Assembly (NCBI GenBank): GCA_026991395.1
Contig: JALXBP010000120.1
Location: 1-41,292, forward strand
Source: Anaerolineae bacterium
GTDB lineage: Bacteria > Chloroflexota > Anaerolineae > B4-G1 > SLSP01
Length of the DNA: 41,292 bases
Direction of reading: 5' to 3'
The first letter of the stretch is position 1. Each line of letters starts with the position of its first letter. The translations under genes and the position numbers were made by a program. Of this stretch, positions 32,957 to 37,318 are shown piece by piece. The notes beneath the pieces are model-generated. The model made no database searches. It was given only the letters and a program-made list of their open reading frames with translations, and was not told where the DNA came from.

Positions 32957-33424
32957 ATGCGTATCGCTATTGCTGCCGATGATCCACGCGGCCTGGAAAG
33001 CGTGGTTTCCCATCACTTCGGACGCTGTCCCTACTACGTCTTCGTGGACCTGGAGGGGAAGGAGGTGCAGAAGGTGGAGGCGCTGCCCAACCCCGGCGCG
33101 GCGCATCACGCGCCCGGCGAGGTGCCCGCCTTCATCCACGCGCAGGGCGCGGAGGTGGTCATCTCCGGCGGGATGGGACAACGGGCTATCGCCCTCTTCC
33201 ACCAATACGGCATCCGCCCCTACACGGGCGCTTCCGGCTCCGTGCGCCACGTGCTGGAGGCGCTGGTCGGCGGGGCGTTAGAGGATGCTCGCCCGTGCAA
33301 GGATGAAGGCGACGAGGCGGAGGGTGAGCACGACGAGGCCCACCGCCTGCGTGAGGAGGTCGAGGCGCTGCGCTGCCAACTCGACGAGGCGGCGCGGCTT
33401 CTGGACGGGATCGCGGGGGAGTGA
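32957..33424 (+). CDS. NifX/NifB-family cofactor-binding protein 2, coiled-coil tail
   Basis: A 155-residue paralogue of the protein at 32033. The core (1-110) has MRIAIAADDPRGLESVVSHHFGRCPYYVFV with His19-His20 and Cys24, GAEVVISGGMGQRAIALFHQYGI, and VRHVLEALVGGAL. His49-His50-His51-type residues near AAHHAPGE may help bind metal. A charged linker with Cys114 precedes a coiled coil (about 127-152, AHRLREEVEALRCQLDEA). Two different NifX-like proteins in one operon suggest a hetero-oligomer or a donor-acceptor pair. An AGGAGG-type site precedes the ATG. Confidence 0.88.
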   Translation: MRIAIAADDPRGLESVVSHHFGRCPYYVFVDLEGKEVQKVEALPNPGAAHHAPGEVPAFIHAQGAEVVISGGMGQRAIALFHQYGIRPYTGASGSVRHVLEALVGGALEDARPCKDEGDEAEGEHDEAHRLREEVEALRCQLDEAARLLDGIAGE

Positions 33425-33458
33425 GAGTGCCGAAGGAGAGTTCCCGGAGGAGCGGCCT

Positions 33459-34331
33459 ATGCGCATAACCGTAGCAAGCGGCAAGGGAGGGACGGGCAAG
33501 ACGACGGTCGCCGTCAATCTGGCGCTGAGCCTGGCCGCCGCCGGTCGCGCCGTAACCTTCCTCGACTGTGATGTGGAGGAGCCGAACGCGCACATCTTCC
33601 TCCGCCCGCAGATCGAGCGGGAGGAGACGACGGGTATCCTCATCCCGGAGGTGGACGACGATCGCTGCACCTACTGCGGACGTTGTGCCGAGGTCTGCGT
33701 CTTCCACGCGATCGCCGTCATCGGCACGAAGGTGCTCGTCTTCCCGGAGCTATGCCACGGCTGCGGGAGTTGCGCCTACAACTGTCCGGAGAAGGCGATC
33801 ACCGAGGTGTTGCATCCCACGGCCAGGCTGCGCTGGGGGAAGGCGACCGGCGAGGGCACGCCCATCGCCTTCGGGGAAGGGGTGCTCGACGTGGGGCAGG
33901 CGATGGCCACGCCGGTCATCCGCGAGTTGAAGAAGAAGGGCCTGCCTGCCGAGGAGGAGTCCATCGCCATCCTCGATGCGCCGCCGGGCAACTCCTGCCC
34001 CGTGGTGGAGACGATGCGCGGCTCCGACTTCGTGCTGCTCGTTACCGAGCCGACGCCCTTCGGGCTGCACGACCTGCGGCTGGCAGTGCAGGTGGCCCGT
34101 GAGGAGCTTGGACTGCCCGCCGGGGTGGTCATCAACCGCGACGGGGTGGGCGACGATTCGGTGGAGCGCTTCTGCGCCGAGGCCGGTATCCCCATCCTGA
34201 TGCGCATTCCGCTCGACCGGCGGATCGCGGAGGCTTACGCGCAGGGCGAGACGATCGTGGCGCGGCTCCCGGAGTACCGCGAGCGCTTCCAGGCGCTCTA
34301 CCGCCGCATCGAGGAGGAGGTGGGACGATGA
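33459..34331 (+). CDS. MinD/ParA-type ATPase with inserted 2x[4Fe-4S] ferredoxin domain, copy 1
   Basis: A 290-residue protein. Deviant Walker A GKGGTGKTT (8-16) and FLDCDVEEPNAH open the ATPase. A ferredoxin-like insert at about 65-115 carries Cys70/73/76/80 and Cys99/102/105/109, enough for two [4Fe-4S] clusters. The ATPase resumes with IAILDAPPGNSCPVVETM (switch II) and VLLVTEPTPFGLHDLRLAV. Such proteins occur beside NifX-like genes in anaerobes and in the Desulfovibrio ORP complex, where they are thought to act in metal-cluster assembly. The longer frame to 33285 overlaps the previous gene and lacks a start signal; ATG 33459 follows CGGAGGAG. It overlaps copy 2 by ATGA. Confidence 0.93.
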   Translation: MRITVASGKGGTGKTTVAVNLALSLAAAGRAVTFLDCDVEEPNAHIFLRPQIEREETTGILIPEVDDDRCTYCGRCAEVCVFHAIAVIGTKVLVFPELCHGCGSCAYNCPEKAITEVLHPTARLRWGKATGEGTPIAFGEGVLDVGQAMATPVIRELKKKGLPAEEESIAILDAPPGNSCPVVETMRGSDFVLLVTEPTPFGLHDLRLAVQVAREELGLPAGVVINRDGVGDDSVERFCAEAGIPILMRIPLDRRIAEAYAQGETIVARLPEYRERFQALYRRIEEEVGR

Positions 34332-35242
34332 GCACGGCACCGAAGCAACTGGTCATCATCAGCGGCAAGGGCGGCACGGGCAAGACGAGCCTCGCGGCGG
34401 CGATTGCCCATCTGGCCGCGGGGGAATTGCCCATCGTCATCGCGGATGCGGACGTGGACGCGGCCAACCTCGACCTGGTGCTCCATCCCACCCGGCTGGA
34501 GAGCCATCCCTTCTCCAACGGGCTGGTGGCGGAGATCGATGAGGAAAAGTGCATCTCCTGCGGGCTGTGCGAGGAGGCCTGCCGCTTCGACGCCATCCTC
34601 GTGCCGGATCGGACGGGCGACCCTTACGGGATCGACGAGGTGGCCTGCGATGGCTGCGCCGCCTGCGTCTATCACTGCCCGGTCGAGGCGATCACGATGC
34701 GCGAGCCGCAGGTCGGCGAGTGGTACCTCTCCGAGACGCCCTACGGGCCGCTCTACCACGCCCATCTCTTCGCCGGGGCCGATAATTCCGGCAAGCTGGT
34801 TACGCTGGTCAAGCAGCAGGCCAAGCTGCGGGCGATGGACGATGGCCGCCCGCTGGTCGTCGTGGACGGGCCGCCGGGGATCGGCTGTCCGGTCATCTCC
34901 GCCGCCTCCGGGGCAGACCTGGCGCTCATCGTCGTCGAGCCGACGCTTTCCGGGGCGCACGATCTGGCGCGGGTACTTGAGTTGACCGATCACTTCGGCG
35001 TCCCGGCGCTGGTGGCGATCAACAAGGGCGATCTGAGCGAGCAGCAGAGCGCGGCCATCGAGGCCTTCTGCCGCGAGCGCGGCGTCGCCTTGTCGGTTCG
35101 CATTCCTTATGATACCCTTGTAACCGAGGCGATGGTGGCCGGGCAACCGATCACCGCCTGGGCCGAAAGTCCGGCAGCGCAGGCCATCCGTGCGCTCTGG
35201 GCGACGATCAAGGCGCGACTGGGGCTACAGGGAAAGGAGTGA
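34328..35242 (+). CDS. MinD/ParA-type ATPase with inserted 2x[4Fe-4S] ferredoxin domain, copy 2
   Basis: A 304-residue paralogue of copy 1. Walker A GKGGTGKTS (13-21), VIADADVDAANLDLVL, ferredoxin insert with Cys75/78/81/85 and Cys107/110/113/117, then VVVDGPPGIGCPVISAASGADLALIVVEP in consecutive segments. The overlap with copy 1 and the equal design suggest a heterodimer, as MinD-type ATPases work as dimers with ATP between subunits. Both copies keep the signature and catalytic lysines, unlike the CpaE-like protein at 18534. Ends four bases before the MIP18-family gene. Confidence 0.93.
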   Translation: MSTAPKQLVIISGKGGTGKTSLAAAIAHLAAGELPIVIADADVDAANLDLVLHPTRLESHPFSNGLVAEIDEEKCISCGLCEEACRFDAILVPDRTGDPYGIDEVACDGCAACVYHCPVEAITMREPQVGEWYLSETPYGPLYHAHLFAGADNSGKLVTLVKQQAKLRAMDDGRPLVVVDGPPGIGCPVISAASGADLALIVVEPTLSGAHDLARVLELTDHFGVPALVAINKGDLSEQQSAAIEAFCRERGVALSVRIPYDTLVTEAMVAGQPITAWAESPAAQAIRALWATIKARLGLQGKE

Positions 35243-35245
35243 GCG

Positions 35246-35551
35246 ATGGCGCTGGAACCTACGCTGCGTGAGAAGGTTCTGATGCGATTGGCGACGGTCA
35301 TCGATCCGGAGACGGGGGCGGACGTCCTGCGGATGCGGCTCATCGAGGAGCTGGAGGCGGATGAGGCGAGCGGTTTCGTCCGCTACCGCTTCCGCCCCTC
35401 CTCGCCGCTCTGTCCGATCGCCGTTACGCTGGCGCACGACATCAAGAAGGCGGTCGCCGAGGTGGAGGGTGTGAAGAAGCAGGAGATCGAGGTCGTCGGC
35501 TACATCAAGGCCGAGGAGTTGACCCGTCTGCTCAATCAGGAAGAGGCGTAG
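35246..35551 (+). CDS. MIP18/DUF59-family iron-sulfur assembly protein
   Basis: A 101-residue protein of the family that includes SufT, PaaD and human CIAO2. It has LREKVLMRLATVIDPETGADVLRMRLIEEL in consecutive segments, where the family has a (V)xDPE motif. PSSPLCPIAVTLAHDIKKAV carries the single Cys56 at the usual reactive position, and VEGVKKQEIEVVGY ends the domain. The family helps mature Fe-S or other metal proteins and is often linked to Mrp/NBP35-type ATPases. As the last gene of the operon, just after two MinD/ferredoxin ATPases, it supports a role for the whole set in building or inserting a metal cluster. Confidence 0.88.
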   Translation: MALEPTLREKVLMRLATVIDPETGADVLRMRLIEELEADEASGFVRYRFRPSSPLCPIAVTLAHDIKKAVAEVEGVKKQEIEVVGYIKAEELTRLLNQEEA

Positions 35552-35609: not shown

Positions 35610-36827
35610 CTACATCATCTCCCGGATGGCTACTCCCAGACGGCGGATGCCCTCGACGATCTTCTCCGGGTTGGCGTTCGAGAAGTTCAGCCGCATGGCG
35701 TGCCGGCCGCCGTCGCCGTTGGGGAAGAAGTTGATGCCCGGCACGTAGGCGACCTTGCGCTCGACGGCGATGTGGAACAGTTCCTGCGTGTCCACCGTCT
35801 CCGGCACCTGTGCCCAGAGGAAGAGGCCGCCGTGCGGATGGGTCCACGAGCAGCCCTCGGGCCAGAATTCGGTCAGCGAATCCAGCATCGTGTCGCGGCG
35901 GCGGTGGTACTCCTTGCGCAGCCGCTTGACGTGGACCTTGAGGAAGCCGCGCTGGGCGACGTCGTTGACCACCATCTGGTCGAAGGTGCTGGTATGCAGG
36001 TCGGCTCCCTGTTTGGCCTGCACCATCTTGAGGATGATCTCCGCGGGGGCCGAAGCCCAGCCGATGCGGATGCCCGGCGTCAGCGTCTTGGAGAAGGTGC
36101 CCAAGTAGATCGTCCGCTCCGGTGCGAGCATGGCGATGGGGATGATGTCCTCGCCCTCGTAGCGCAGCGCGCCGTAGGGGTCGTCCTCGACGATGAGGAG
36201 GTCGTACTTGCGGGCGATCTCGACGAGGAGACGGCGGCGCTCCTCCGGCAGCGTGGTGCCCGCGGGATTGTGGAAGTTCGGCAGCACGTAGATGAAGCGC
36301 GGAGCTTCCTGCTTCACCAGAGGTTCGATCTTCTCCACCTGCATCCCGTTTTCGTCCAAGGGAACGGTGATGAAGCGTGCGCCGTAGGCCCGCCATGCCT
36401 GGATCGCGCCGAGGTAGGTCGGGCTGCTGGTGAGGACGGGGGCACCCTCATCGATGAAGACCTTGCCTAACATATCGAGCGCCTGCTGTGAGCCGGTCGT
36501 GATGAGGATATTGGCGGGGGTGCGGTTGATGCCGTACTTGGACATCGATTCGGCGATGAACTCTCGCAGTGGCGGGTATCCCTCTGTGGCGCTGTACTGG
36601 AGCGCCTTTGCTGGCTCTTCGCGAAGGATGAAGTGGCATGCCTCCTCGATCTCCCGCACGGGGAACAGTTCCGGGGCAGGCATACCACCGGCAAAAGAGA
36701 TCACGTCGGGAAACTGCGTAACCTTGAGCAGTTCGCGGATGGCCGAGCTGCGCATCCGACGTGCCCGCTTGGCCATAAAGCGCTCCCATCCCACTTCTCC
36801 ATCCGGCGACTTGGCATAAACGGTCAT
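35610..36827 (-). CDS. PLP-dependent aminotransferase (LysN/2-aminoadipate type)
   Basis: A 405-residue fold-type I enzyme. It shows VISFAGGMPAPELFP (about 42-56), LQYSATEGYPPLRE, VLPNFHNPAGTT (Asn187-Pro188), VEDDPYGALRYEGE (Asp216 at the pyridine N) and TFSKTLTPGIRIGW with the PLP lysine Lys247. This pattern is that of the LysN/AADAT group, which transaminates 2-aminoadipate and often Leu, aromatic amino acids or kynurenine. Substrate cannot be fixed without lysine-pathway neighbours. The ATG at 36827 has AAGGAGG seven bases upstream and overlaps the stop of a 50-codon leader frame by ATGA. The longer frame to 36914 would read through the terminator hairpin and is not preferred. Confidence 0.9.
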   Translation of the reverse strand: MTVYAKSPDGEVGWERFMAKRARRMRSSAIRELLKVTQFPDVISFAGGMPAPELFPVREIEEACHFILREEPAKALQYSATEGYPPLREFIAESMSKYGINRTPANILITTGSQQALDMLGKVFIDEGAPVLTSSPTYLGAIQAWRAYGARFITVPLDENGMQVEKIEPLVKQEAPRFIYVLPNFHNPAGTTLPEERRRLLVEIARKYDLLIVEDDPYGALRYEGEDIIPIAMLAPERTIYLGTFSKTLTPGIRIGWASAPAEIILKMVQAKQGADLHTSTFDQMVVNDVAQRGFLKVHVKRLRKEYHRRRDTMLDSLTEFWPEGCSWTHPHGGLFLWAQVPETVDTQELFHIAVERKVAYVPGINFFPNGDGGRHAMRLNFSNANPEKIVEGIRRLGVAIREMM

Positions 36828-36976
36828 GTTGGCCTCCTTTTCAAACGAGATTCGGAAAGCAAAAAGTCCCTGTGCGCCGACAGGGACTTGGGTTCGTGAG
36901 ACGTTATGCTCCAAAGCAACAAGCCGTACAAGATGACGGCCATCGAAATCGCTATGGACATGCTTTCTACCATCAT
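36824..36976 (-). CDS. Leaderless 50-residue membrane-peptide ORF ahead of the aminotransferase
   Basis: Starts with two ATG codons at 36971-36976. The first A lies seven bases past the TACAAT box, so the message would begin on the start codon. The product has one hydrophobic helix (about residues 7-24, SIAISMAVILYGLLLWSI) followed by a polar, basic tail. The stop TGA (36824-36826) overlaps the aminotransferase ATG as ATGA. Codons about 30-38 form the terminator hairpin at 36864-36889. This could be a real small membrane protein, a leader peptide for attenuation, or a chance frame. The exact promoter spacing and the coupled stop favour translation. Confidence 0.5.
   Translation of the reverse strand: MMVESMSIAISMAVILYGLLLWSITSHEPKSLSAHRDFLLSESRLKRRPT
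36861..36889 (-). terminator. Intrinsic terminator or attenuator before the aminotransferase gene
   Basis: On the minus strand AAGTCCCTGT pairs perfectly with ACAGGGACTT over a 6-base loop and runs into TTT, giving five T in a row with the stem end. It lies between the promoter at 36983 and the ATG at 36827, so it must be bypassed for expression. Confidence 0.72.
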
Positions 36977-36982
36977 AGCTCG

Positions 36983-37010
36983 ATTGTATGCGCCTTCACA
37001 AAGGGGTCAA
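36983..37010 (-). promoter_or_regulatory. Promoter of the leader ORF and aminotransferase
   Basis: On the minus strand: TTGACC (37005-37010), 16 bases, TACAAT (36983-36988). It is back to back with the plus-strand promoter at 37022. Confidence 0.68.
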
Positions 37011-37021
37011 GCGCCCTTCGC

Positions 37022-37050
37022 TTCACACTTTTGACCATTGCGGTTATAAT
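37022..37050 (+). promoter_or_regulatory. Promoter of the small membrane protein and dynamin gene
   Basis: TTCACA (37022-37027), 17 bases, perfect TATAAT (37045-37050). The -35 boxes of the two divergent promoters are only 11 bases apart, so one regulator could act on both. Confidence 0.7.
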
Positions 37051-37075
37051 TTGGATTGTAAGGAGGTGAGATCGG

Positions 37076-37318
37076 ATGGACAAGCTACCGGAGATGAAGC
37101 AGAAGACGAGGAAGGTGCCCGCGCTTCTGTATCCTTTCGTCGGACTGTGGCGCTTCTTTGCCAGGCTCGTCGAGTTGATGGGGCGGGCGATGGCCGCGCT
37201 GCTCGGCCTGCTGGTGATGATCATCGGCGTTCTGCTCACGACGACGCTCATCGGCGCTGTGATCGGCATCCCGCTCGTCATCTTCGGCTTTCTCCTCGTT
37301 GTCCGGGCCTTTTTCTAA
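37076..37318 (+). CDS. Small hydrophobic membrane protein
   Basis: An 80-residue protein not matched to a named family. A basic start (MDKLPEMKQKTRKVPALL) leads to an amphipathic stretch (YPFVGLWRFFARLVELMGRAM). Two tight membrane helices follow (about 41-55 and 56-78, LLGLLVMIIGVLLTTT and LIGAVIGIPLVIFGFLLVVRAFF). AAGGAGG is nine bases before the ATG. Its stop is only three bases from the dynamin start, so it may be a membrane partner or adapter for that GTPase. Confidence 0.75.
   Translation: MDKLPEMKQKTRKVPALLYPFVGLWRFFARLVELMGRAMAALLGLLVMIIGVLLTTTLIGAVIGIPLVIFGFLLVVRAFF

Follow-up and report, generated by a model that had tools for sequence, protein, structure and literature searches.

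The aminotransferase gene and its leader

The window analyzed here, a stretch of 41,292 nucleotides from an Anaerolineae bacterium, encodes on its minus strand a class I/II aminotransferase (Pfam PF00155) whose upstream region contains a promoter, a short hydrophobic ORF, and an intrinsic terminator lying inside that ORF (Table 1). An earlier sequence-only reading had described the TACAAT box, the spacing of its ATG, the 50-codon frame, the 10-bp stem, and the ATGA overlap, and all of these are present. The leader ATG at position 36976 is 6 nt past the −10 box, within the 5–10 nt between box and start codon that, together with the missing Shine-Dalgarno sequence, defines a leaderless start. 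The ORF crosses the terminator, whose stem is perfectly paired and followed by TTTTTGC, the last stem pairs overlapping the T-run; the U-run of the transcript lies at about 36857–36863. In untranslated leader RNA, this terminator folds with a predicted probability of 0.96. Upstream of it, the Leu codons are TTG (three) and CTT (one), and the Leu/Ile cluster sits about 15–50 nt 5′ of the terminator.

Table 1 Features of the leader locus upstream of the aminotransferase gene
Feature	Position	Strand	Remarks
Sigma-70-type promoter, TTGACC-16-TACAAT	36983..37010	−	10/12 matches
Leader ORF, 50 codons, MMVESMSIAISMAVILYGLLLWSITSHEPKSLSAHRDFLLSESRLKRRPT	36824..36976	−	Leaderless or near-leaderless, without Shine-Dalgarno
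Leu/Ile codon cluster VILYGLLLWSI, presumed sensing codons	36905..36937	−	Leu/Ile enrichment across leaders
Intrinsic terminator stem-loop, 10 bp, dG −14.8, within leader ORF, then U-run	36864..36889	−	
Shine-Dalgarno AAGGAGG of the aminotransferase	36833..36839	−	
ATGA overlap of leader stop and aminotransferase start	36824..36827	−	Stop ends at +4
Class I/II (LysN/ARO8-type) aminotransferase, 405 aa	35610..36827	−	PF00155; 2egy, E 2e-110

Two further groups of ORFs flank the locus on the plus strand. Opposite the leader, positions 37022–37318 encode an 80-aa hydrophobic ORF with a divergent promoter (TTCACA-17-TATAAT). Positions 33285–35551, convergent with the aminotransferase gene, hold a tandem pair of ORFs whose P-loop and ferredoxin-like cysteine motifs look MinD/NBP35-like by eye and, after them, a 101-aa ORF.

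The solved structures nearest to the aminotransferase are LysN-like, including the 2-aminoadipate transaminase of T. thermophilus (2egy). LysN accepts a broad range of substrates, leucine among them, and from homology only we infer that branched-chain amino acids may be substrates here as well. The window’s genome (G000; the window is on contig C120) comprises 2.46 Mb in 153 contigs and is listed as 100% complete. No IlvE-fold enzyme, true IlvB, or IlvC was found in it, and no candidate for LysW, the carrier of the aminoadipate lysine pathway, exceeded the cut-off (best score 28.6 bits against 53.2). These absences make a role in de novo branched-chain amino acid or aminoadipate-lysine synthesis unlikely in this genome; most naturally, the enzyme would serve the breakdown of amino acids.

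Recurrence and stop-codon positions of the leaders

Close relatives of the window’s genome are Chloroflexota MAGs named Thermoflexales, Thermoflexia, or Anaerolineae, and those named here are the best 80 of 181. All 60 relatives searched contain a match to the aminotransferase at E ≤ 0.001, a count that includes paralogues; at the stricter E ≤ 1e-120, 147 of the 298 genomes in the class contain one. Upstream regions from 139 loci, a part of all matches, yielded 116 distinct sequences, mostly from Chloroflexota; L028 and L056 were excluded since their upstream regions are missing. Strong terminators, defined as having a dG ≤ −13 and lying 10–120 nt from the gene start, are present in 44 of the 116, compared to 2.4 expected from dinucleotide shuffles; among 106 other genes, taken from the named contigs and from the window, 9 have one. 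L188, with a mis-set gene start, was kept in the 116 and is outside the 44. A Leu/Ile-rich short ORF accompanies the strong terminator at 36 of the 44 loci (the window and 35 other distinct loci), as in L080 (MVDFYLYPIFISILIVVLIIIP), L067 (MGLVSILSLEIARRPVQQAILFSLLALLLLVNT), L216 (MIRNLALILLDVLARRSQSA), and L219 (MTKTRGLILLDILLR); three of the 36 frames (L206, L222, and L227) are weakly Leu/Ile-rich, and in L034 and L067 the Leu/Ile cluster is denser than in the window. The 106 control genes gave six leader candidates, none of which reaches 25% Leu+Ile.

Eight loci (L050, L052, L055, L209, L211, L212, L213, and L223) were rejected as leaders, lacking a Leu/Ile-rich frame despite their strong terminators. 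Several of the eight resemble the ends of upstream genes.

A TTGAC/TA.AAT promoter pair precedes 11 of the 13 leaders of the same family, and in 8 of these 11, the window included, the ATG follows the −10 box by 5–10 nt; L038 and L044 instead display GGAG ahead of the leader start. The leaderless start proposed for the window thus recurs in near-leaderless form among its relatives, and PMC3160421 reports leaderless genes in 4 of 12 Chloroflexi genomes. Conservation of the frame in close relatives, the lack of which the sequence-only reading had named as a refutation, is divided: the frame is present in most of the family and absent from the nearest relative, G006. In G014, which belongs to the genus of the leader-bearing G008, a promoter directly precedes the aminotransferase gene. 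G002 retains a leader with its terminator, and a repeat-like insert separates both from the gene.

At L041, the putative attenuator is parted from its gene by a short inverted-repeat insert (TCACCACAGAG...CTCTGTGGTGA), which follows the terminator about 50–230 nt upstream of the aminotransferase start.

Of the 116 distinct upstream regions of this gene, 36 share the layout while differing in the peptide, which supports the translation-dependent attenuator that had been raised as a possibility. We consider it very probable that these leaders belong to this class.

The position of the leader stop codon relative to the 5′ arm of the terminator was compared with that in known attenuators. By this measure the E. 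coli leaders stop at −20 (thrL), −21 (leuL), −22 (ilvL), and −42 (trpL), and pyrL stops at +47. In the set studied here, 32 of 36 leaders stop before the gene, at −16 to +131. The interval from −45 to −17 contains none of these stops, and 22 of the 32 lie where the arm begins or farther downstream. This distribution is partly selected, since frames were picked by eye with the aid of an ORF listing that left out frames ending well before the terminator. The other four (L001, L043, L045, and L046) reach or pass the gene start. In total, 26 of the 36 leaders end inside the terminator or beyond it, and 10 frames cross it entirely; a ribosome finishing one of the ten leaders that end 2–16 nt short of the arm would occlude it only in part. 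Neither the window leader nor the others of this set have a stop far enough upstream to free the terminator, as a classical attenuator does. The E. coli ribosome represses terminators that follow a stop codon by less than 27 nt (PMC4824070).

We then compared the leaders for their tendency to form an antiterminator. An unshuffled measure of co-transcriptional sequestration proved too noisy, and a shuffled version was used instead; equilibrium folding at each ribosome position does not discriminate between the models, since the completed terminator is almost always the favored structure. The 36 leaders average z −0.34 (window z 0.3) on this noisy measure, which gives z 0.4 to 2.8 for E. coli controls and just 0.4 for leuL. 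The leaders of ilvB in relatives (n = 9) average +1.07 on nearly the same measure, with Val codons added. The difference is significant in a one-sided Mann-Whitney test (p 0.0002), in which related loci are not independent, and persists when the loci are thinned by hand to 24 aminotransferase and 5 ilvB leaders (p 0.0007).

These ilvB leaders differ in other respects as well. All nine Anaerolineae relatives read (L154–L162) have a leader and a terminator in the 330 nt or so that precede the ilvB match. The peptides contain Leu/Ile/Val runs such as GLLILVIVVLLL, the stops fall at −17 to −54, and the arm of the terminator (GCCGCCC..GGGCGGC) is complementary to an upstream segment of the GGGCGGTT type. 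No Rfam family matched at the ilvB leaders. From these features, ilvB of this clade appears to use a textbook attenuator that is switched on by starvation, and G007 and G017 possess both kinds of leader.

The distribution of ilvC, scored by matches over cut-off in 30 relatives, bears on the purpose of the aminotransferase leader. Within the family, the leader occurs without ilvC in 11 genomes (G000, G001, G002, G004, G005, G007, G008, G009, G010, G011, and G015) and with it in G017; among those lacking the leader and having a readable upstream region, G006 is without ilvC, and G003, G012, G014, and G016 have it. The leader therefore goes with the absence of ilvC, both in the family (11/1 against 1/4, Fisher p 0.0099) and in the whole order (15/2 against 4/6, p 0.025), phylogeny and genome incompleteness being uncorrected in both tests. 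The two leader carriers with ilvC are G017 and G032; G007 has ilvB, and no ilvC was found in it.

Together, these observations bear on the strongest alternative, classical attenuation as in leuL and ilvL, in which ribosomes stalled on Leu/Ile codons under starvation would allow an alternative hairpin to form, turning on an aminotransferase that makes leucine from its oxo-acid. Leu/Ile-rich leaders followed by a terminator are its textbook signs, ilvB in this clade appears to be controlled in precisely this way, and in L219 and L066 the terminator arm is sequestered while ribosomes occupy the Leu codons, as judged by the unshuffled, noisy measure. The leaderless branched-chain amino acid leader of C. 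glutamicum ilvBNC also works this way (PMC11857589). Against it, the 26 stops inside or past the terminator, with none in the −17 to −45 interval, mean that ribosomes finishing the leader in plentiful leucine would impede termination, and on the noisy folding measure the leaders show no average antiterminator tendency. Moreover, ilvC is missing from 11 of the 12 scored same-family carriers, in which de novo synthesis can therefore not be the purpose of the leader. We regard the classical arrangement as unlikely.

Translation and codon content of the leaders

A second alternative is that the leader aids translation, with finishing ribosomes reinitiating at, or feeding, the aminotransferase start and the terminator serving merely as a leaky damper. 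The sequence-only reading had coupled the leader stop to the gene start, and this feature is real and not general among the leaders: the ATGA overlap is confined to the window, L043, and L045, with L054 stopping 1 nt before the gene. Such loci would suit a translational aid, as would the “antenna” role that PMC4833913 proposes for short-distance leaders. Most leaders, however, stop 20–130 nt upstream, and the gene has its own Shine-Dalgarno sequence, with 5 or 6 matches to AGGAGG, at every named same-family locus except L049. Enrichment in Leu and Ile would also go unexplained, and we consider this alternative improbable.

That enrichment does not depend on choosing frames by eye. A composition-blind rule taking ATG ORFs beside the 44 terminators, 38 of which gave one, was compared with shuffled leaders. 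Leu makes up 17.6% of residues compared to 10.6% after shuffling (z 6.7), and Ile is likewise raised (z 3.4). Val, Phe, Ala, and Tyr are unchanged, Trp is low, and Met is raised, at least partly through runs of start codons. Thinning the set to 30 dissimilar loci leaves both residues enriched (z 4.8 for Leu, z 2.9 for Ile); the observed Leu+Ile content is reached in 0 of 400 shuffles, and that of Val in 174 of 400. Leu codons are densest 15–60 nt before the terminator arm (0.23–0.29 per codon) and fall to 0.06 per codon in the final 15 nt. CTG and CTC account for 31% of Leu codons in leaders and 66% in genes, a difference confounded by base composition. Codon-position substitutions in 12 close pairs show no clear excess at third positions, which usually marks selection on a frame, and so do not prove that the leaders are translated. 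The first reading was right that the window’s frame lacks a run of one amino acid; a Leu/Ile cluster takes its place, a signal that becomes clear only across relatives.

This composition weighs against a chance ORF, in which the promoter and terminator would be real and the frame untranslated. The folding of the terminator in untranslated RNA and the lack of a clear third-position bias would be compatible with such an ORF, but the blind-rule enrichment and the placement of the ATG in 8 of 11 promoter-bearing leaders are not expected from it, and a promoter firing into a terminator that is nearly complete would leave the gene silent unless something relieved the block. We hold this reading to be very improbable.

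Least probable of all is a functional single-helix membrane peptide with the terminator placed incidentally: the hydrophobic stretch that the sequence-only reading took for such a helix is real and plausible as one, and peptides resemble each other within a genus (L038/L044 and L043/L045), but the sequences are not conserved between genera, no Pfam match was found, only Leu and Ile are enriched and not Val, Phe, Ala, or Trp, and the shortest leaders (L219, L216, and L218) are just 15–20 codons long. A membrane helix would not be expected to favor Leu and Ile alone, and the ORF appears to encode a leader peptide instead of a membrane protein.

Proposed mechanism and known systems

The architecture is real and conserved, and its layout suggests an attenuator that may differ from the textbook amino-acid switches. 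From its parts we infer that the transcript begins at the ATG, that a ribosome loads there and can stall at Leu/Ile codons, and which sign the switch has. RNA polymerase would start at or beside the leader ATG, and a ribosome would load on the bare 5′ end and trail the polymerase closely. With charged Leu- and Ile-tRNA plentiful, the ribosome would reach the terminator arm while the polymerase is still synthesizing it, blocking the hairpin and allowing transcription of the aminotransferase. A ribosome stalled in the Leu/Ile cluster, 15–60 nt before the terminator, would let the polymerase run ahead, so that the hairpin folds and transcription stops. Abundant leucine and isoleucine would in this way switch on a transaminase that consumes amino acids.

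PMC4824070 considers a ribosome unlikely to draw level with RNA polymerase within the first 100 bp without the help of pausing. In E. coli, stalling at polyproline ahead of the pyrL terminator leads to termination (PMC5021804). An upstream pause hairpin, which could keep polymerase and ribosome in step, is suggested by a mean z of −1.0 over the 36 loci; in the window this hairpin is weak (−6.1) and not significant.

We judge the chances to be evenly divided for a pyrBI-like attenuator read through Leu/Ile codons in which smooth translation means on and stalling means off. The more specific proposal, an inverse attenuator whose leaderless Leu/Ile leader turns on a catabolic aminotransferase when tRNA is plentiful, alongside an ilvB switched on by starvation in the same clade, is tentative and falls slightly short of that. 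To our knowledge, the amino-acid-codon attenuators known so far are switched on by starvation. If the proposed direction is true, one sensor, the speed of the ribosome on Leu/Ile codons, would act with opposite signs on ilvB and the aminotransferase gene, and the difference would be set by the position of the leader stop relative to the terminator. Leader-peptide attenuation would also be newly extended to Chloroflexota: the literature searched yielded no description of it in Chloroflexota or Chloroflexi, and no relevant paper on leader peptides with catabolism or on Chloroflexi with branched-chain amino acids.

T-box riboswitches (RF00230) resemble the proposed system in controlling amino-acid genes by termination. 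They match in all 60 relatives searched, over cut-off in 50 (for example G000:C127:10820-11077 and G000:C142:8302-8550), which points to tRNA-sensing termination as common in the group. A T-box at the leader itself was rejected, Rfam giving no match at the window leader or at 20 further leader-bearing loci.

The window has the general parts of a leader-peptide attenuator, namely a promoter, a Leu/Ile-enriched short ORF, and an intrinsic terminator before the gene. Leu/Ile leaders and terminators are shared with the ilvB attenuators of the same Anaerolineae, which are set apart by their Leu/Ile/Val runs, more upstream stops, and GGGCGGTT-type complement. A short Leu/Ile-rich peptide followed by an intrinsic terminator is likewise found in E. 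coli leuL and ilvL, S. aureus ilvD, and C. glutamicum ilvBNC, the last of which starts one nucleotide from the transcript start (PMC11857589). Those leaders control biosynthesis, whereas the gene here is an aminotransferase. The stops of leuL and ilvL precede the terminator by 21–22 nt and that of ilvD by 52 nt (the latter from PMC5794164), whereas the stops here reach into it; alternative hairpins are described for these systems, and no antiterminator tendency is seen in our set on the noisy measure used.

In its layout, the window is closer to E. coli pyrBI. The pyrL ORF also traverses its terminator and ends beside the gene, the terminator lies inside the leader ORF in both, and the ribosome itself blocks the hairpin in pyrBI, as proposed here. 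pyrBI senses UTP through polymerase pausing; the presumed sensor here is the set of Leu/Ile codons, and the window leader lacks a Shine-Dalgarno sequence. Normal UTP is mentioned in PMC4824070. The proposed switch would thus combine a pyrBI-like geometry with a leuL-like input and an output inverted relative to that of leuL.
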